NCBI GenBank assembly: GCA_003212345.1
Contig: QCPZ01000004.1
Coordinates: 1-64,000, forward strand
Length of the DNA stretch: 64,000 nt
From: SAR116 cluster bacterium AG-447-A06
Lineage (GTDB): Bacteria; Pseudomonadota; Alphaproteobacteria; Puniceispirillales; Puniceispirillaceae
Direction: 5' to 3'
The translations under genes and the position numbers were made by a program. Shown in pieces: positions 1,322 to 16,449 of this stretch; the stretch's first letter is position 1; each line of letters starts with the position of its first letter. The notes beneath the pieces are model-generated. The model did no database searches, was not told where the DNA came from, and saw only the letters and a program-made list of their open reading frames with translations.

Positions 1322-4300
1322 TCAAACAACTTCAATTAAAGCTTGGAAGAGTTCCCGAGCGGTCGACAAAATACGAGCTGACGCTTGATATGCTTGTTGA
1401 AACTCCAACAGCGCTGCCGCCTCTTCATCAAGATTTACTCCTGAAAACTCAGCCTCTGCTTCCTCTGCCGCATTTCGAGCAGCCTCCGCAGACGCCAAAG
1501 TAATCTCGCCCGAACGAACACTCTCGCCTAGTTCAGCAACAATTGTGCCAAAAACCCTTTGAAACCCACCTGAATTAGCACCGCCAACATCAGAAAACTG
1601 CAAGTCCATTATTTTTTGAAGATTACTAGCGTCGCCGCCCCCATTTTTATTCTCTTTTAGGACGAACTCATCATTTAATTTTGCGTTACCTAAAACAGTA
1701 AATTCGGTATTATCGAAAGTCGTCTTTTTATTGTCTAAGGTTCGCGTCGCAATTGAATGCCCTGTAGCTAAGTCAAACATTTCCACAGTCGAACCATCAT
1801 CCAAAAACTGCAACTTGATTTCGTCAATACCAATTTTTGGAACAGGCTCATCAAATGTAGCGCCCAAAGATCTCGCTCCAGCGCCAGTAAAGATCACTAG
1901 TAGATCTTCATGCGCTAGATTTGACATTTCCACCACCGAACCAGCAATACTGGTTGCTGCTGCGTCTACTTTAAAGGGAGATCCGTCATTTGCCTTCACT
2001 CTAATTTCATTTTCAACAACACTGATTGAGTGGTCAGTTACTTTAAAACCAAGCCGATCAGAAGGCTTTGTGAAATCAAGAGTGTTTTCAATCGCATTGA
2101 ATTCTAACACTAAACGTCCCGTTGTTGAAGTGGCGCTTTCCCACCTGGCAGTCAAGCCTGATGTTGTAGGGGTTACCGTAACAGCACCAGTGTTTGACAA
2201 TGCGACCGCCACGTTTGCACCATTAAATTTCAAGTTTAAATTTGCCATGCCATTAGCTAGTGTTTGGGTTTGACCGGCAAATCTTGTGGTGGAGGCGTCA
2301 ATCCCGAACAGAGCCGCATTTGTGCTATTGCCTGCCACAATTGAGTCAGAAGTTACTGATATAGCCGCTCCAGAAAGTGTGCCGCCCCCATAAACTTGAA
2401 GTTTTTGATTAGCGTCAAAATAAGCGTTCAATCGCCCAGGCTCACCGCCAGTCACAACTATTTCGCTGTCTGCCATTGTCAACAAATACTGCTCACCATC
2501 AAACGTAAGTGAAACAGACTCCCCGTCTTCTGGTAATTTTTTGGATACTGAAGTTGAAACGAGAGCTAATGACCCTTGGGAACCAGAGTTTGCTGCGTCA
2601 GTGAAAGTCATTTCCTGAACAGTGAACGCTTCGCCTAATTGAGTTGAAGTAAGGATTATTTGTCGCGTCCCTCCAACAACTGCTTTGCTGGCTACCACGC
2701 CCAAACTAGCAGAGTTGACAGCATTCATAACAGCGGTAGTTACATCCTCGCCATTAGTCGCGGCAGTGCCACTGCCGTCAATATTAGTTAGATCAATCGG
2801 CACATTTGTGCCGTTAATCCTAACCGCTACAGTGTCTGCTCCCGAAACAACCGCCTCGGAACCCGCAAAACCATAAGTCGTGACTTGCTTTGATGCAGCT
2901 ACGTTACTTGCAGAGAGCGACGATAAAGGAGCTTGCTGGCGTAGTGCGCTTGTTAATGCGCTATTAACCTTCGACTTGCTTAGTGACCCCATAGACCTAG
3001 CGTCAACAGTTGCCGAAAATTTTACGTTAGAAGCACTGGAAGGAATACTTAGGTGATAAGTGGCAGCAGCTGCCGTTGCACCATTACCATCGTATGAAGA
3101 GTCGCTTTCGTCGATGTCACTATTAACCTCATAATCTATAGTTTTAATATCACCATTTAAATTAGTCTTAACATCAGCCATTCCACCAAGGTTTTCATCT
3201 TTAGCCGAAATTTTCGTAACGCCAAGAGTAGCCTGTTGAAGAGTAAAACTCTCTGATGCTGTGTAAAACAGTTGCCCGGAGAACCGTGCGCTTTTAACTC
3301 GCTCACCACCAATGACACTTCCCATTTCTATCGCCGAATTGTTGTCAAGACCTCCGACCGTTATTGTTAGATTGTTGGCTCCGTCCGTACCACCAAGTGC
3401 TGATCCAAGGATAGTAAATGTGTCACCGACTTTGTACCCATTGCCTTTGGCATTTATCGCAAGGGTGAGATTTCCATTGTTAAGTGTGACATCAGCCGTT
3501 GCACCCGCACCTTCACCAGAGCTATTGTTGAGAGCGAATGTTTTGGTTGCAAGGGTCAATGTTCCAAATGAACCAGCGCCGGTCAAAGCTCCAATTTGCG
3601 TGATGGCTGGCAAATTATCTTTGTCAATGATGCGCATTGAAAATGTTGTGCTAGCCTCACTTAACTCACTTAAGACAATATCTTCTCCCTCTGAGCTTTC
3701 CAATATCAAGCGGGCTTTATCAGTTGAAAGATACGCTGTCACACCTGTAGAATTTGATATTTGGTTAATGGACGATGCGAGGTTCGTCAAATTTGTACTG
3801 GTTACATCTGCGCTGACTTTAACTGGCATCCGGTTCTCAGACTCAATTTCAAACTCTACAGTTCCAGAGGCAAACCCATAAAGTTCGGTCACAAGTCTTG
3901 CCTCAACGCTGACTCCAAGTTTATTAAATTTTTTATTTGCGGTTGCAGCTACCGCCTTTGCCGAAGCTCCAGCAGTCACTGCAACACTAGCCGTCTCTGC
4001 ATTTGCCATGGTGATTTTTAAAGTATCTGCAGTCGCATTATTTGCTGGTATACCTGACGTTCCACCAACTGACCTAGCCAGAGAGCCATTACTCCCGCTC
4101 TCAACAAAATGCAAACCACCACTTCGACTGACGTTTAATGAAATATCTCTATACGCATTGTCCTCACGATTTAAGTAGTCTCCCCGATAGACAGCTTCCG
4201 GCGAGAAGCCGTTTGTAGTGCTTAATAGGTTGGTTACAATGTCTGCAGGTAATGCGGTACCAGCAATATGCCGACCTTCGCGCGTAAACACTTGAAAGTC

Positions 4301-6187
4301 AGATGCCACGACAGCATCACTTATAGCTGCTTGAACGGTTCCAACTCCTGCAGACACAGAAGCAACTCCACTTCCGGTAGAGACAAAATTTCCACTACCC
4401 GAAACAAGCGTAAAGTTCCCTTCCCTGCCAGAAACACGAATCCCTAAATCAGCCATTGAGAGATTTGCTGTGCTTTTGAGGACTCCACTATTTAAAAGAT
4501 TGGCCAGTTCGGCGCTATCAGTCCACTTTGCCGATGACGATGCGTTTGGATAGGCAGTGCCATACTTAATATCAAACGTGTGCGGACCATTGTTATCTGA
4601 TCCAGTGCGTTGAAACGACAGCTGCTGTAGGTTGTTAAGAACCAGCCCCTGAAGCTGGAACTTAGCTGAGGACTGTTTTTCAAATGATGCAATCTTGGCG
4701 CTAGGAGTTCCAGCAGGGATTACACTAACAAGCCCGCTAGACAAAAAATTGGTGGCTTCAATTGGTGAGAGTGAATTCTTTAATGTCTTGGAAATATCAA
4801 ATGGGTCTAATTTTTTAACATTGTTGAGACTTGTGGCAACAACAGATGCTTCACTTGTGTTTTTCACCGCAGCCTCGACGGTCAGTTTACCAGAGGCTGC
4901 AATTTCCTGGGGCTTAGAAAGCAGTAAACTAATATTGGAAGCCGCTGATGACCCACGTGTGACTTCAAAAAAATCATTGTCTCTCGGAGAGCCCGTTACC
5001 ACAATATTAAAACCCTGACCTTGAAGTTGTGTCCTACCCGTAATTGGTGTTGCCAACCCTTCGCCATTTAAAGTCCAGATATTTGATGCCTTATCATACC
5101 GAGCTGTTAGGGGACCAGATGGCAATGACATCGGATCGCTGACATCAATTTGAACTCTGAGGTCGTTGCTAGCTGAAGGACTTAGCTCTGCGCTTAGGCC
5201 AAATACAGAAAACATGGATTTACCTGTATTTCCATTGAGGTCTATTCCATTCTCGTGATGTTCGTTGACTGTGCTAGACATAAGAAACGCCAAATTATCA
5301 AGGTCGTTTTTCACCTCTTCGATAAGTGAATACGCGTCAACTGCTCCCGCTAAGGACCCAGCATCCACCTGACTGGTTGGGCGAAAAACCGATCCAGAAC
5401 CAATGGTCACTTGAAGTTTTCCAAATGCAATATTATGCCCCGCACTATTAAATGTGGTATTGTCCACCAAAACAGGGCCCATACCACTAGAGCCAATACT
5501 AACCTTCGCAGAGCCGACATCCGAATACTCTACGCTTAGAGAAGTCAAAGATGACATTTCACTAATTGTTTTGTCTCTCAAATCCAGCAAAGAGTTTGGC
5601 GTCTGCCCACTTTGCCCAGAAGATAATATTCTCGCATTTATAGATGCTAACTCTTTTGCTAGGATTGATAGTGAAGAAGTCCCAATTTTTGTTTGCTCCA
5701 GGGCACCATTTTGGAGTTGTTCAAGTTGCGCTGCGAGACCGTTAAATGATGATACCAGAGATTTACTGATCTCGATCGCCACAGATCTTGAGGCAATGTC
5801 GGTTGGGGCTGCTGCGACGTCGGACATAGCAGAAAAAAACCGTCCCAATTGTTCGTTTAAACCACCCTCAGATGGCAGCAGTGTATTTTCAAGCTGGCGT
5901 AAATTATCGAGGAATATATCCACCTTTTGATAACTTGCGTTAGTTGAATTAGTTCGGCCTAGTAAAAACCCATCAAAGGCCCGCCGAATATCGGCAACAC
6001 GCACACCCAATCCAGATTGATTTGCGAGACTGGTGATACCACCCTGGCTACCTGAAACTTCCTCGAGGTCGGCCTCGCGGCGCTTATAGCCATCTGTATT
6101 TATGTTGGCAATGTTTTGCCCGGTTACCGCCAAGGATTGGCGGTAACTCTGAACAGCACTTTTGCCTACATCAAATAAACTGGACAT
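1322..6187 (-). CDS. flgK: Flagellar hook-associated protein 1 (FlgK), unusually large, 1621 aa
   Basis: N-terminal MSSLFDVGKSAVQSYRQSLAVTGQNIANINTDGYKRREADL and C-terminal SGVNLDEEAAALLEFQQAYQASARILSTARELFQALI are FlgK hallmarks; large central insertion. Confidence 0.93.
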   Translation of the reverse strand: MSSLFDVGKSAVQSYRQSLAVTGQNIANINTDGYKRREADLEEVSGSQGGITSLANQSGLGVRVADIRRAFDGFLLGRTNSTNASYQKVDIFLDNLRQLENTLLPSEGGLNEQLGRFFSAMSDVAAAPTDIASRSVAIEISKSLVSSFNGLAAQLEQLQNGALEQTKIGTSSLSILAKELASINARILSSGQSGQTPNSLLDLRDKTISEMSSLTSLSVEYSDVGSAKVSIGSSGMGPVLVDNTTFNSAGHNIAFGKLQVTIGSGSVFRPTSQVDAGSLAGAVDAYSLIEEVKNDLDNLAFLMSSTVNEHHENGIDLNGNTGKSMFSVFGLSAELSPSASNDLRVQIDVSDPMSLPSGPLTARYDKASNIWTLNGEGLATPITGRTQLQGQGFNIVVTGSPRDNDFFEVTRGSSAASNISLLLSKPQEIAASGKLTVEAAVKNTSEASVVATSLNNVKKLDPFDISKTLKNSLSPIEATNFLSSGLVSVIPAGTPSAKIASFEKQSSAKFQLQGLVLNNLQQLSFQRTGSDNNGPHTFDIKYGTAYPNASSSAKWTDSAELANLLNSGVLKSTANLSMADLGIRVSGREGNFTLVSGSGNFVSTGSGVASVSAGVGTVQAAISDAVVASDFQVFTREGRHIAGTALPADIVTNLLSTTNGFSPEAVYRGDYLNREDNAYRDISLNVSRSGGLHFVESGSNGSLARSVGGTSGIPANNATADTLKITMANAETASVAVTAGASAKAVAATANKKFNKLGVSVEARLVTELYGFASGTVEFEIESENRMPVKVSADVTSTNLTNLASSINQISNSTGVTAYLSTDKARLILESSEGEDIVLSELSEASTTFSMRIIDKDNLPAITQIGALTGAGSFGTLTLATKTFALNNSSGEGAGATADVTLNNGNLTLAINAKGNGYKVGDTFTILGSALGGTDGANNLTITVGGLDNNSAIEMGSVIGGERVKSARFSGQLFYTASESFTLQQATLGVTKISAKDENLGGMADVKTNLNGDIKTIDYEVNSDIDESDSSYDGNGATAAAATYHLSIPSSASNVKFSATVDARSMGSLSKSKVNSALTSALRQQAPLSSLSASNVAASKQVTTYGFAGSEAVVSGADTVAVRINGTNVPIDLTNIDGSGTAATNGEDVTTAVMNAVNSASLGVVASKAVVGGTRQIILTSTQLGEAFTVQEMTFTDAANSGSQGSLALVSTSVSKKLPEDGESVSLTFDGEQYLLTMADSEIVVTGGEPGRLNAYFDANQKLQVYGGGTLSGAAISVTSDSIVAGNSTNAALFGIDASTTRFAGQTQTLANGMANLNLKFNGANVAVALSNTGAVTVTPTTSGLTARWESATSTTGRLVLEFNAIENTLDFTKPSDRLGFKVTDHSISVVENEIRVKANDGSPFKVDAAATSIAGSVVEMSNLAHEDLLVIFTGAGARSLGATFDEPVPKIGIDEIKLQFLDDGSTVEMFDLATGHSIATRTLDNKKTTFDNTEFTVLGNAKLNDEFVLKENKNGGGDASNLQKIMDLQFSDVGGANSGGFQRVFGTIVAELGESVRSGEITLASAEAARNAAEEAEAEFSGVNLDEEAAALLEFQQAYQASARILSTARELFQALIEVV

Positions 6188-10050: not shown

Positions 10051-13000
10051 TTACATACGAATGTTAATAATGGTTTGTGTTAGTGTAGTGGTAGTCTCAA
10101 TTGCTTTAGCCGAAGCTTGGAAGTTTCGCTGTGCTGTAATCAGGTTTACCAATTCTTCGGTGATATCAACATTTGACCGTTCCAACGAACCAGATAGGAT
10201 ATTTCCATAGCCCTCTGCTCCAGCCTCACCAACCTGGGCCTCACCTGAAACCGCAGTTTCAACGTAGGTAGCGTTACCAATTTGCTTCAGACCATTTTGG
10301 TTGTTGAAGTTAGCAAGAACGATTTTTCCTAATGGATTATTCTGACCGTTCGTATAGTTTGCTCGAATTGTGCCGGAGGAGTCAATTTCTAGACCGTCAA
10401 GGCGACCGGATGTGAAACCATCCTGATCAACATTCAAAACCGAGAATGGTTGGGCGAACTGCGTTGACTGGCCAAAATCAATGTCTAGAGCGATAGAGAA
10501 ACCTTCTTCTTGGCGCTCATAATGCACCAAATTTTTCGGGCTGATGATCTGACCACCATTACTGAATGTGAGTTCACCTTCATCAATATAAAGGGGGTAA
10601 TATCCGTCAACCAAATTTGCTGGCGGCGTGGTGACAACAGCTCCTTCAGAATTAACAAAAAGCGCCACACCGTCATCATTAGTAGCTTGAACAAGGTTGT
10701 AAATTTGAGGCACCGTGCCCACACCAAGATCTACATCATCGAGTCCAAACCTTGCGGCACCCTTCACTTTAATCGTGGACGTATTCCCTGTTGTTCCAGT
10801 TTGGAAACTAAAGTTATTCGTATCTGAATTATATTTCACAGTGACACCGCCAACGGTGTCGCCTGTAACTGGATCTTGGATTTGGTTAATTCGGTTCTGC
10901 AAAGCTTCAGCTAAAGTTGAACCAACATAAAAGCCTGTTGGAATTTCGATAACTCCGCTTATACCATTTACAGACACGTTAAAAACATTTTCTCCACCAG
11001 TATTTGTGAGCCGGAATACCGCGGTTAAATCTTCAATTGCGGCGTCACCGATTGAAACTGCGGGGCTAGAGGCAAGACCTTTACCTGCAGATATAACTGC
11101 ATCAGTCTTCGACACACCAACAGACATCAGGTGATTGTCACCGCTGAAGTGGTCAGTGGCATCGATCACGGAACCATCATCGGTTGATAATGAGTACCGC
11201 CCAACAGATATGGCAGACGCTTTCTGCTGAGACGTAACACCAAGTGCACCGTTGGCCTCAATTAGCTCTCCTGTAGAACCACTTGCAAAAGTAAAATTCT
11301 GAGTATCACTGTTATAGTTTACCGTTACACCATATCTCTTATCGTTAAGCTGGATTTCTTCACCATCGGAGACAAATGGTTCAGTTCTCAAGACTTCTCC
11401 ACCTCTGATCAATACAGTTGAAGCATCATCCTGGGTTGGCACGCCGAGATTATTTGTATCTGTGGCTAATGTCGAACCAAACACCGAGAATGAATTAAAG
11501 TTACTCTCTGTTCCAGTTCCCAGAATTGTACGGTCAACAGTAAATTCTAGTTTTTGCGTAGTTTCATTATAATTTATCTTGATGGGCGGGGCTTTTTCAT
11601 CAACCCAGTCGGTGGATGTCGTCATATCAGAGGTGTTGTTGGCTTTATGTAGACCAAGAACATCGAGTGAACTTTTAGTTGCACCCGCTACCACCTGATT
11701 AATTGTGAACTGTCCACTGTCAACTTTAATAATTCCACCTGCATAATTTCCGCCAAGGGCAGCAATTTGAGCGTTACTGTAAGAATGTTTATTTGCATCA
11801 CCAATTTCTCTAATGACTATCTTTTCACTACTAAAATTGACTTGAGCCCCCTCATAAACGTTTGAAGAGCCCTCAAAAAATGCCTCAATGGACTCAGATT
11901 CATCACTCATGACAAAAATATCAGCTTCGGTTAAATTGAAACCATCGTCCGGAAATGATAATCCAGTGGTATTTATTGTAATTATTTTGTTATTTGCGTC
12001 GGTTGTTGTGTCTACATTTGTAACTGTAAACTCCCGACCATTGATATGAGATGCCGCAATTGCGTCAGCGGGCAGGAACTGTCCACCAATACGGATTTTC
12101 TCGTTATTCGATATCGGCGGTGTCGTTGTTCCAAAATTAATCGTCATAGTATTTTGAGTTGCATCAAACTTGACAGTATAGGCTGGATTTGAATTTCCGG
12201 CATTAACCTGAGTTTTGTTATCATAAACGCTCACACTTGGCGTCTTGCCCTGGTACGAATAAACCATGTACTTATCAGATATTGTTGTATTATTTCCCGC
12301 CGGAGTCGATGATGACGAGACTGCATGCTTAAGATTTACAATCTGTGTCTGAGTTAATATCGCGTCCATCTTAGTGCCGACAGATCTCGCGAACATTTGA
12401 TTACTCACACCGAGTGCGCTTGCACCAGCCGCCGTGCTAGCATAGGTATTCAGAGCATTATTCGTTCGTGCTTGAGCGTGGGCAAGAAATTGATCACGGG
12501 TAAAATCCGGCGAAGCACCCGTCAAAGTAATACCTTCAACTGTCGAAACATAGCTGTCGGCTAGTAAATCAACAGAAACTGCCGTAGATAGGCCAGTGGA
12601 TGAACCATCAGCATTCAGCTTAAACAGGTTTACGCTGAGGGTGTCATCAATATTTTGAACGACTTGAATTTTACTATCATCGCCATAAGCTGCATTAATT
12701 GCCCGCTCAACTTCTGCCGCTAATTGTGTTGCATTGTACTTACCGGGCCTCAAATCAATGTTGACCGGTTGGTCACCGTTATCAACGTTTACTGTGAGAA
12801 AGTTTTTGCCCCAATAAACCCGGCTATCCGCATCACCACTCTCACGGGTCGCATTAAACTGAATCGGATCAGTGACGATTTCAACAAGCCTGTCACCCTC
12901 CTCACCAAAATCAAATTCTGTGGCCTCTCCCGTAAGTTTTGCGGGCTGTGAGTCAACTAAAGTTTGCAGGTTGTCTCTTTTATAAAGTGCGGAGCCCTTT

Positions 13001-13836
13001 CCCTCAATAAAATAGTTGTCATCTGGGACAGTAGTTGTCTGCATCCCAAATCTATCAATGAAAATCTGCTTTCCAGCGTCGTCAACAGAGGGAACTAAGT
13101 CAGGTGTAATGACGGTGTCATTAATAACAAGACGCGTGTCATATTTGTTAGTCGGGTCATCCGCTGATGCAGACTGGGTTTTGATGAAATACATGGTCGC
13201 GATGGTTGGGTTTCCCAAATCATCAAAGATTGTAATTGATGTCGAGTTAGTAAACGTATTTGGATCTGCTGGGTCAAACCTATACCCATCAGCGAAAGCG
13301 GGCCTGTCAGGAACCACATCAGCCGCGGCAGGAACGTTAACTCCAAGAGAAATATTACTTGTCGCTTGAGGATCACCGGAAGTGACTGGCAATTGCAAAG
13401 GTAGAGCACTATCGAGGTCTTTTGCCGTCACGGAACCATCATCGTTCACTGGGTAAACTAAAAGATACTGACCTGCCGAGTCCACAACGTAACGGTCATT
13501 GTCCACGTTCAAAGATCCATTTCGAGTGTAAACCTTTTGGTTGGAGGTCAAGGAAGGCTTCAAAGTAAAAAATCCCTGACCGGAGATCGCAAGATCGAGA
13601 GCATTCAACGACGAGGAAATATTACCCTGCGTAAACTGTTGTTTAATACCCTTCAAAATCGCACCCGAACCAATAGAAGACGACGCATTCTGCAAGGGTG
13701 AGGTCGCGAAAATATCACCAAACTCAGCTCGGCTGCGCTTAAAGCCAGTCGTTCCAACGTTCGCGATGTTGTTTGAGGTAGCAGAGATATCTGCACTAGA
13801 ACCATTCAAACCAGTCAATGCGGTATAAAAAGACAT
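10051..13836 (-). CDS. flgE: Flagellar hook protein FlgE, unusually large, 1261 aa
   Basis: MSFYTALTGLNGSSADISATSNNIANVGTTGFKRSRAEFGDIF N-term and SNVDITEELVNLITAQRNFQASAKAIETTTTLTQTIINIRM C-term. Confidence 0.93.
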   Translation of the reverse strand: MSFYTALTGLNGSSADISATSNNIANVGTTGFKRSRAEFGDIFATSPLQNASSSIGSGAILKGIKQQFTQGNISSSLNALDLAISGQGFFTLKPSLTSNQKVYTRNGSLNVDNDRYVVDSAGQYLLVYPVNDDGSVTAKDLDSALPLQLPVTSGDPQATSNISLGVNVPAAADVVPDRPAFADGYRFDPADPNTFTNSTSITIFDDLGNPTIATMYFIKTQSASADDPTNKYDTRLVINDTVITPDLVPSVDDAGKQIFIDRFGMQTTTVPDDNYFIEGKGSALYKRDNLQTLVDSQPAKLTGEATEFDFGEEGDRLVEIVTDPIQFNATRESGDADSRVYWGKNFLTVNVDNGDQPVNIDLRPGKYNATQLAAEVERAINAAYGDDSKIQVVQNIDDTLSVNLFKLNADGSSTGLSTAVSVDLLADSYVSTVEGITLTGASPDFTRDQFLAHAQARTNNALNTYASTAAGASALGVSNQMFARSVGTKMDAILTQTQIVNLKHAVSSSSTPAGNNTTISDKYMVYSYQGKTPSVSVYDNKTQVNAGNSNPAYTVKFDATQNTMTINFGTTTPPISNNEKIRIGGQFLPADAIAASHINGREFTVTNVDTTTDANNKIITINTTGLSFPDDGFNLTEADIFVMSDESESIEAFFEGSSNVYEGAQVNFSSEKIVIREIGDANKHSYSNAQIAALGGNYAGGIIKVDSGQFTINQVVAGATKSSLDVLGLHKANNTSDMTTSTDWVDEKAPPIKINYNETTQKLEFTVDRTILGTGTESNFNSFSVFGSTLATDTNNLGVPTQDDASTVLIRGGEVLRTEPFVSDGEEIQLNDKRYGVTVNYNSDTQNFTFASGSTGELIEANGALGVTSQQKASAISVGRYSLSTDDGSVIDATDHFSGDNHLMSVGVSKTDAVISAGKGLASSPAVSIGDAAIEDLTAVFRLTNTGGENVFNVSVNGISGVIEIPTGFYVGSTLAEALQNRINQIQDPVTGDTVGGVTVKYNSDTNNFSFQTGTTGNTSTIKVKGAARFGLDDVDLGVGTVPQIYNLVQATNDDGVALFVNSEGAVVTTPPANLVDGYYPLYIDEGELTFSNGGQIISPKNLVHYERQEEGFSIALDIDFGQSTQFAQPFSVLNVDQDGFTSGRLDGLEIDSSGTIRANYTNGQNNPLGKIVLANFNNQNGLKQIGNATYVETAVSGEAQVGEAGAEGYGNILSGSLERSNVDITEELVNLITAQRNFQASAKAIETTTTLTQTIINIRM

Positions 13837-14604: not shown

Positions 14605-15024
14605 CTATTTACCCATGTTGATGGTTCGCATCATCAGCCCACGCAACGTGGAAATTACTTCAATATTATTTTGGTATTGCCGACTTGCTTCAACCATCTC
14701 AATCATTTCTTCGTTTTCATCGACAGCAGCCCGGTAAACATAACCGTCACCATCAGCCGACGGATGATTCGGCATAAAAACACGCTCTGGATCACGCGTG
14801 ATAGCCTTAATTCCCACAACATCAACCGTTGACACACCATTGCTTTCAATAGCCTCAGAAAACTGGGTTTCAAACACAGGCTTCAGTGATTTGTAGGCCT
14901 CTTCCTTCGAGCCTGATATAGTGCCGGCATTTGCAAGATTACTGGCAACTGTATTCAAGCGCACCATCTGGGACGCCATTGCCCGTCCAGCGATGTCAAA
15001 TACATTTCTAATCTCTGCCATCAC
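14605..15024 (-). CDS. flgC: Proximal rod protein FlgC
   Basis: FDIAGRAMASQMVRLNTVASNLANAGT...; 4-nt overlap with flgB. Confidence 0.94.
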   Translation of the reverse strand: MMAEIRNVFDIAGRAMASQMVRLNTVASNLANAGTISGSKEEAYKSLKPVFETQFSEAIESNGVSTVDVVGIKAITRDPERVFMPNHPSADGDGYVYRAAVDENEEMIEMVEASRQYQNNIEVISTLRGLMMRTINMGK

Positions 15025-15410
15025 TCACCCCTAATCGCAGACATCAATCCAGAAATACGATTATTCAAAAATGTCAAAGTCGTCTGGTAGCGCGTCACAT
15101 TTTCAGAAAATTCCATCTGCTCGACGGCTAATTCCACCGTGTTTCCATCCATGGATGGATTAATTGGGTCGCGAAACAGGATACGGTCGCGCCCCACCGT
15201 GACTGCAGTATCAAGATGCTGGCCATGTGTTACTTTTAATGGGCCAGTTCCAGACGCGTGCTTTTGCATTTGTGCGTCAAAGCTCAAATCACGAGCCTTA
15301 AAATTAGGCGTTGCCGCATTCGCAATATTAGACGCCAAAATTTCATTACGACGCGATCGCAGCATCAACGCCTGTGCATGAAAGTCTAAATGTGAAGCAA
15401 TTTTATTCAT
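15021..15410 (-). CDS. flgB: Proximal rod protein FlgB
   Basis: LDFHAQALMLRSRRNEILASNIANAATPNFKARDLSF. Confidence 0.94.
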   Translation of the reverse strand: MNKIASHLDFHAQALMLRSRRNEILASNIANAATPNFKARDLSFDAQMQKHASGTGPLKVTHGQHLDTAVTVGRDRILFRDPINPSMDGNTVELAVEQMEFSENVTRYQTTLTFLNNRISGLMSAIRGE

Positions 15411-15464
15411 TAATTATAGCAATCCAAAAAAACGCTGGGGTTTCTGGCCAACAACGGTCAGACT

Positions 15465-15480
15465 TGGTGTGGAATTTGCA
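15465..15480 (+). promoter_or_regulatory. Candidate sigma-54 -24/-12 promoter (TTGGTGTGGAATTTGC) for the acidic-tail gene at 15514
   Basis: GG-N10-GC spacing with TTTGCA; weaker -24 than the other sites; overlaps the flgB promoter. Confidence 0.5.
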
Positions 15481-15493
15481 AATAGAATGCCAA
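15478..15493 (-). promoter_or_regulatory. Candidate sigma-54 -24/-12 promoter (TTGGCATTCTATTTGC) for flgBCDE...
   Basis: TTGGCA-N7-TGC; GG-N10-GC; upstream of flgB. Confidence 0.75.
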
Positions 15494-15513
15494 AACTAGA
15501 AAGAGGCAGAAAA

Positions 15514-16449
15514 ATGAATAATTCAATGGCTGAAGCTAAGGCAGGCACCTTATCGCCGTCCAAATTAGCGCCGGAAACAATCAGAATTCGAAACGCCTTA
15601 ATCGAAAAATATGCAGATCAGCCAATTGAAGAGCTAAATATCTTTCTTCAACATGCTCTCGAAGCTGAAAAGGACGAATTGAAACGGTTGGGGCTATTGG
15701 CAGCTCGTGTTTATATTCTTCGCCAGAAAGTATTAAGTCTTAAAGCCTTTATTCGTGATGAGCGTATGAACAGCATCCCCACTCCCAACCTTGCACTGAG
15801 CGAGCAAATTTTGCTGGATGAGACCGCCCATAGTGATATTGACATTAAAAGCGAAACCGTCGCGGCGGGCGAATGGCATTCGCTTCAGATGATTGAACCA
15901 GGAGAGGTTCACGGGGTAAGATTTTTTGAGGGTACTATTATTAACGCAAAAGCCGAAGATGCTGAAAAGCTGATTTCTTCAGGCAAAGCAATAGTGATAG
16001 ATGATAAGGGCAATCCAGTTGAGAACAATAAGGACGATAACGGCGATAGCAGTGATACTATTGACCAGGAGGTTGATACAGCTGATATCGGCATTCCATC
16101 AGATGATGAAAATTTAAAGGACACCAATTCTTTAGACGCCACCGTGGGCGTGGATGACAATGATAACAGTAATACGATTGATCCAAAAGCTGGCGTCATT
16201 GATAAGGTAGCGGTCGTTGACGCTGATGATGACAGCAGTTTGTTAGATGATGAAAATGCTGATTACTCCAATTCCTCAGACTCTGCGGTAGGAGGAGATG
16301 ACACCGGTGATGACAATATGGCTGACTCAAACGCTGACGTCATGGATGAGCCCGCATCAGCTAATGCCACTGATGAAGACATTGTGTCAGAGGATAAAAA
16401 TGCTGACGACAGCCAAGGCGAAGACGGTTCAGAAGAGAAAAAAGACTGA
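15514..16449 (+). CDS. Uncharacterised protein with long Asp/Ser-rich acidic C-terminal tail
   Basis: Start at ATG 15514 with AGAGGCAG upstream preferred over the GTG at 15469, which lies inside the candidate promoter; tail ...DDDSSLLDDENADYSNSSDSAVGGDDTGDDN... Confidence 0.75.
   Translation: MNNSMAEAKAGTLSPSKLAPETIRIRNALIEKYADQPIEELNIFLQHALEAEKDELKRLGLLAARVYILRQKVLSLKAFIRDERMNSIPTPNLALSEQILLDETAHSDIDIKSETVAAGEWHSLQMIEPGEVHGVRFFEGTIINAKAEDAEKLISSGKAIVIDDKGNPVENNKDDNGDSSDTIDQEVDTADIGIPSDDENLKDTNSLDATVGVDDNDNSNTIDPKAGVIDKVAVVDADDDSSLLDDENADYSNSSDSAVGGDDTGDDNMADSNADVMDEPASANATDEDIVSEDKNADDSQGEDGSEEKKD

Follow-up and report, generated by a model that had tools for sequence, protein, structure and literature searches.

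Does the intergenic region between flgB and the gene that diverges from it, in the 64,000-nucleotide stretch of DNA analyzed here (the window), hold one sigma-54 promoter that is read in both directions, and if so, does it switch between the two genes or serve them together? The original prediction held that a -24/-12 promoter can be read here on both strands, and this was borne out by our analysis (Table 1). Each site has the spacing GG-N10-GC with TTGC as its -12 element, the -24 element being TTGGCA toward flgB and TGG toward the divergent partner gene. The plus-strand site has its GG at 15466-15467 and its GC at 15478-15479, and the minus-strand site has its GG at 15491-15490 and its GC at 15479-15478; as had been claimed, a single GC within the palindrome ATTTGCAAAT is therefore common to both -12 elements. 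The full element comprises 30 bases, which read TTGGTGTGGAATTTGCAAATAGAATGCCAA. Following the usual sigma-54 geometry, in which transcription begins ~12 bases beyond the GC, the two predicted starts lie 25 bp apart, each within the -24 element of the opposite site. The minus-strand start falls at ~15466, where it had previously been placed, whereas the plus-strand start falls at ~15491 rather than ~15490 and the element begins at 15464 rather than 15465.

Table 1. Features of the flgB/partner region in window coordinates. Scores are from a matrix derived from E. coli sites and applied to another organism's DNA.
Feature	Position	Strand	Basis or remark
flgB, first gene of the rod/hook operon	15021..15410	-	TIGR01396, E 1e-30
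Probable bidirectional sigma-54 promoter core, TTGG-N8-TTGCAA-N8-CCAA	15464..15493	.	Sequence and conservation
-24/-12 site toward the acidic-tail gene, TTGGTGTGGAATTTGCA	15464..15480	+	Score 13.8
Ten-base palindrome ATTTGCAAAT with the single GC common to both -12 elements	15474..15483	.	Sequence
-24/-12 site toward flgB, TTGGCATTCTATTTGCA	15477..15493	-	Score 17.2
Likely ribosome-binding site of the acidic-tail gene, AGAGG	15502..15506	+	7 bases before ATG 15514
Acidic-tail (partner) gene P0001, 311 aa, flagellum-associated	15514..16449	+	Sequence; relatives all with flgB
Small gene following the acidic-tail gene, lipoprotein-like, with an uncertain start codon	16452..16838	+	L140 and L142 have a similar gene at this position

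For the scoring matrix, we used 50 intergenic sites bound by sigma-54 in E. coli ChIP data (PMC4591121). Scored with the same matrix, these reference sites themselves reach a median of 16.1, with 11.9 at the 10th percentile and 7.9 for the weakest bound site. Among the 127,968 positions scored in the window, the flgB site ranks 5th and the partner site ranks 14th by this E. coli matrix, and the E. coli bound site IS20 (TTGGTGTGGCTTTTGCA) differs from the partner site by two spacer bases. The compound motif TGG-N8-TTGCAA-N8-CCA occurs once in the window compared to no occurrence in 50 mononucleotide shuffles. When a restricted form of this motif was sought in 387 genomes of the class, 14 finds were obtained, nine of them at flgB/partner loci. 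Every other strong sigma-54-like site in the window lacked a mirror half, ruling out such halves as a general habit of its sigma-54 sites. Sigma-54-like sites also occur upstream of other flagellar-cluster genes, namely flgG (9233, minus strand), flhA (21183, plus strand), a flgF/flgG-like gene (27511, minus strand) and a membrane protein gene (32256, minus strand), all of them lacking a mirror half.

On the flgB side, the order of open reading frames (flgB-flgC-flgD-flgE-flgF-flgG and onward) corresponds to a rod/hook operon. Elsewhere in the window are two unusually long proteins, one FlgE-like hook protein of 1261 aa (10051-13836) and one FlgK-like protein of 1621 aa (1322-6187), and flgB itself contains a perfect 16-base palindrome, TCCATCCATGGATGGA, at 15144-15159. 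For the partner gene, we rejected the mechanical start at GTG 15469, a codon located within the promoter, in favor of the ATG at 15514, which is conserved. The layout of its product is an N-terminal helical hairpin, a DUF7210-like mini-domain and an acidic tail. The mini-domain (EVNGVRFPxGxxIDV..EDAxKLIxSGKA, residues ~120-160, in window 15514-15993) is a weak match to DUF7210/DUF7302. DUF7210 was also weakly matched in 11 of 22 relatives of the protein, and P0001 itself gave no match in Pfam or NCBIfam. Both DUFs are domains of phage proteins. An AlphaFold model of the first 160 residues had a mean pLDDT of 51, with only the helical hairpin (~residues 20-85) being usable. The fold was poorly predicted, and no convincing match was obtained among solved structures. 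The small lipoprotein-like gene downstream, whose likeness to the genes at L140 and L142 was judged by eye, is possibly co-transcribed with the acidic-tail gene.

To follow both genes across relatives, we searched 61 genomes from the organism's own and related genera, families and order, many of which are incomplete; order and family labels are as assigned by the genome search. Relatives of the partner gene were found in 35 genomes, all of which also contain flgB, and those examined are divergent from it. Neither gene was present in 25 genomes, and the only genome with flgB alone has it at a contig edge. For 70 loci of the order, we extracted flgB together with the sequence upstream of it, and the flgB site was present in every one. 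The original prediction had made conservation of the weaker plus-strand site one of its tests, and the mirror TGG was found in 43 of 43 loci in families f1, f2 and f3; among close relatives, it was missing only in family f4 (0/27). A class-wide search showed that two further orders have the partner gene, and in an enlarged sample of these both sites are present in 31 of 31 loci. Overall, both halves are kept in 74 of 74 flgB/partner loci, which represent five families (f1-f3, f12 and f22), three orders and 38 distinct site pairs. The flgB-side site is kept in all 101 loci of the clades examined. This retention in 74 gene pairs across three orders suggests that the two-way promoter is real and not a coincidence.

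The pattern of conservation was also informative. Alignment of 48 double loci showed no variation in TGG, TTGCAA and TGCCAA (2.0 bits per base), compared to an average of 0.26 bits for the upstream flank. The distance from the shared GC core to the partner ATG in the aligned loci is 27-48 nt with a mode of 36, short and constant enough to fit a short leader. Over the 74 loci, scores from the E. coli matrix range from 10.8 to 17.3 for the plus-strand site and from 15.9 to 19.3 for the minus-strand site. All plus-strand sites exceed the weakest bound E. coli site, and 48 of 74 exceed the E. coli 10th percentile. The flgB side outscores the partner side in 72 of 74 loci, with a median difference of 3.8 bits. 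This is mirrored in the -24 elements, as that of flgB is always TTGGCA and that of the partner is TGGT in 69 of 74 loci, with T in place of C after TGG. A distant relative, L145 in family f108, has the flgB site only, and no recognizable partner promoter was found at this locus. At another locus (L105, on G118:C134), a second flgB and a tail-less partner gene have their own double sigma-54 site; this locus may derive from another organism, given that G118 is 7% contaminated. Since both sites are kept there beside a tail-less partner, we rejected the acidic tail as an explanation for the doubling.

Family f4 provides a natural control. In its 27 loci (L030, L031 and L111-L135), the flgB site is kept throughout and the plus-strand half is consistently lost; the partner proteins, 139-158 aa in length, have no acidic tail. 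Instead of the sigma-54 half, the motif G[TC]CGT[AT] lies within 90 bases upstream of the partner start in 26 of 27 f4 loci, compared to only 4 of 42 double-promoter loci. The f4 flagellin genes have TAAAC-N13-GTCGTA(A/T) upstream, and because the -10 is of the same type, the partner motif is most simply read as a sigma-28 (FliA) promoter. Parsimony, applied without a tree, suggests that f4 lost its sigma-54 half, given that the double site persists in two other orders. This exchange of promoters is strong comparative evidence that the plus-strand half would be the promoter of the partner gene, and it indicates that the partner would belong to the flagellar regulon. Both FliA and FlgM are encoded in the window, where TAAA...GTGTCGTAAC upstream of flgM (~18101, minus strand) resembles the sigma-28 sites of flagellin genes in related genomes.

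Judging from gene content, the organism is probably a marine alphaproteobacterium. The genome encodes RpoN as well as two sigma-54 activators, the latter side by side on one contig (L032 and L033, at G000:C31) as divergent genes. One of them adjoins fliF, and its best model is Caulobacter FlbD with a score below the model cut-off; no HTH_8 was detected in this protein. The other activator has HTH_8 and no N-terminal sensor domain, and the two are possibly a split activator pair. A search of the intergenic region for an enhancer site, using conserved windows and dyads, gave no clear conserved dyad.

Based on these results, we consider it probable that this element serves sigma-54 as a promoter in both directions and that flgB and its partner are co-expressed rather than switched. 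Sigma-54 polymerase would use the one palindromic -12 core in either orientation, each with its own -24 GG, firing leftward into the flgB rod/hook operon and rightward into the acidic-tail flagellar gene. Because the sites overlap fully, the geometry implies that the two closed complexes would be mutually exclusive, as originally predicted, with polymerase bound one way blocking the other orientation. A single flagellar activator of the FlbD/NtrC type may then open whichever complex is present, and we think that partner and flgB are probably opened by the same activator. The constant difference in -24 strength would set a fixed ratio in favor of flgB, and the conserved inequality of the sites does suggest a set ratio favoring the rod/hook operon. 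We give roughly even chances to the more specific proposal that a closed complex, stable and poised, occupies the element in either orientation and that the -24 inequality yields a hard-wired ratio with anti-correlated bursts when one activator opens whichever complex is present.

The original prediction went further and proposed a built-in switch that chooses either the rod/hook operon or an unknown gene. Here, regulated occupancy of one orientation would silence the other, and cells would express the rod/hook operon and the partner by turns. The complete overlap of the sites, and hence exclusive binding, is compatible with this, and at two-way sigma-70 promoters strong activation one way can repress the other (PMC12825309). 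Yet the partner is found only with flgB and is conserved with the flagellar cluster, so it is itself flagellum-associated; moreover, the same sigma factor would serve both sides, and the bias toward flgB is conserved (72 of 74 loci). A switch would also need orientation-specific control, and no operator or orientation-specific regulator site was found in the intergenic region. The switch is thus unsupported and, in our judgment, unlikely, and a biased, coupled output is the more likely behavior.

Slightly less likely again is that the plus-strand orientation acts as a poised decoy, bound by polymerase and rarely opened, which would limit flgB while the partner has another promoter. The plus-strand site is the weaker one at nearly all loci, and with T after TGG it could be occupied and still initiate weakly; in E. 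coli, sigma-54 binding without transcription is common (PMC4591121). However, the short and constant spacing to the partner ATG and the sigma-28-type site that replaces the plus-strand half in f4 both argue that this half drives the partner gene. It is very improbable that the dyad is the operator of a dimeric regulator overlapping a one-way flgB promoter. Although TTGG-N8-TTGCAA-N8-CCAA forms a near-perfect inverted repeat, its two halves differ throughout in the manner in which sigma-54 sites vary, the spacing is exactly GG-N10-GC both ways, the plus-strand half scores as a sigma-54 site, and the core lies at promoter distance from both genes. Finally, chance alone could have placed a GG at the mirror position of a palindromic -12, and because TTGCA-type -12 elements often form TTGCAA, a mirror site needs only this GG. 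Such a coincidence has a negligible probability and is ruled out by the conservation comparison (mirror TGG in every one of the 74 loci versus none in f4), and no mirror accompanies the remaining strong sigma-54-like sites in the window.

The bidirectional sigma-54 promoter that we favor has well-known relatives among sigma-70 promoters. Two-way promoters built on one pseudo-symmetric -10 are a common arrangement for sigma-70, and studies have addressed the competition between their directions (PMC12825309, PMC10268837). Like these, the present element has one symmetric core for both strands, divergent starts and two polymerases that would exclude each other; the commonest start spacing at the sigma-70 promoters is 18 bp, compared to the 25 bp predicted here. 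Unlike these, it is a sigma-54 element with a shared -12. Since a sigma-54 promoter opens only with the help of an ATP-driven activator, competition would take place already before activation, between stable closed complexes. Neither PMC12825309 nor PMC10268837 mentions sigma-54 or RpoN, and we found no sigma-54 promoter pair with a common -12 in the open-access literature, which is weak evidence of absence.

Divergent promoters in other bacteria offer partial parallels. The flaN/flbG units of Caulobacter, reportedly described by Mullin and Newton in 1993 (cited in PMC3096577) as divergent sigma-54 units with ftr elements, are likewise flagellar and alphaproteobacterial. Their regulation operates through the ftr sites and is not known to involve one shared -12. 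Between the divergent E. coli genes hycA and hypA there are also two sigma-54 promoters facing apart, but their motif centers (2848502 and 2848630) are 128 bp apart and do not overlap (PMC4591121 Table 1). In Rhodobacter sphaeroides, flgB2/fliI2 and fliL2/fliF2 resemble our locus in having a short divergent flagellar intergenic region before flgB, and one regulator site can serve two promoters there; these promoters are CtrA-dependent, with RpoN uninvolved according to the authors (PMC6180460). The element described here, by contrast, is of the sigma-54 type.

At two-way sigma-70 promoters, basal occupancy is low and competition is consequently weak. Because sigma-54 polymerase already sits on its promoters, inactive, until it is activated, sharing a -12 would turn the choice of orientation into a control point. 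An element conserved over three orders, together with a sister family that lacks one half, is a ready test of such orientation control and links an unnamed gene family to flagellar assembly.
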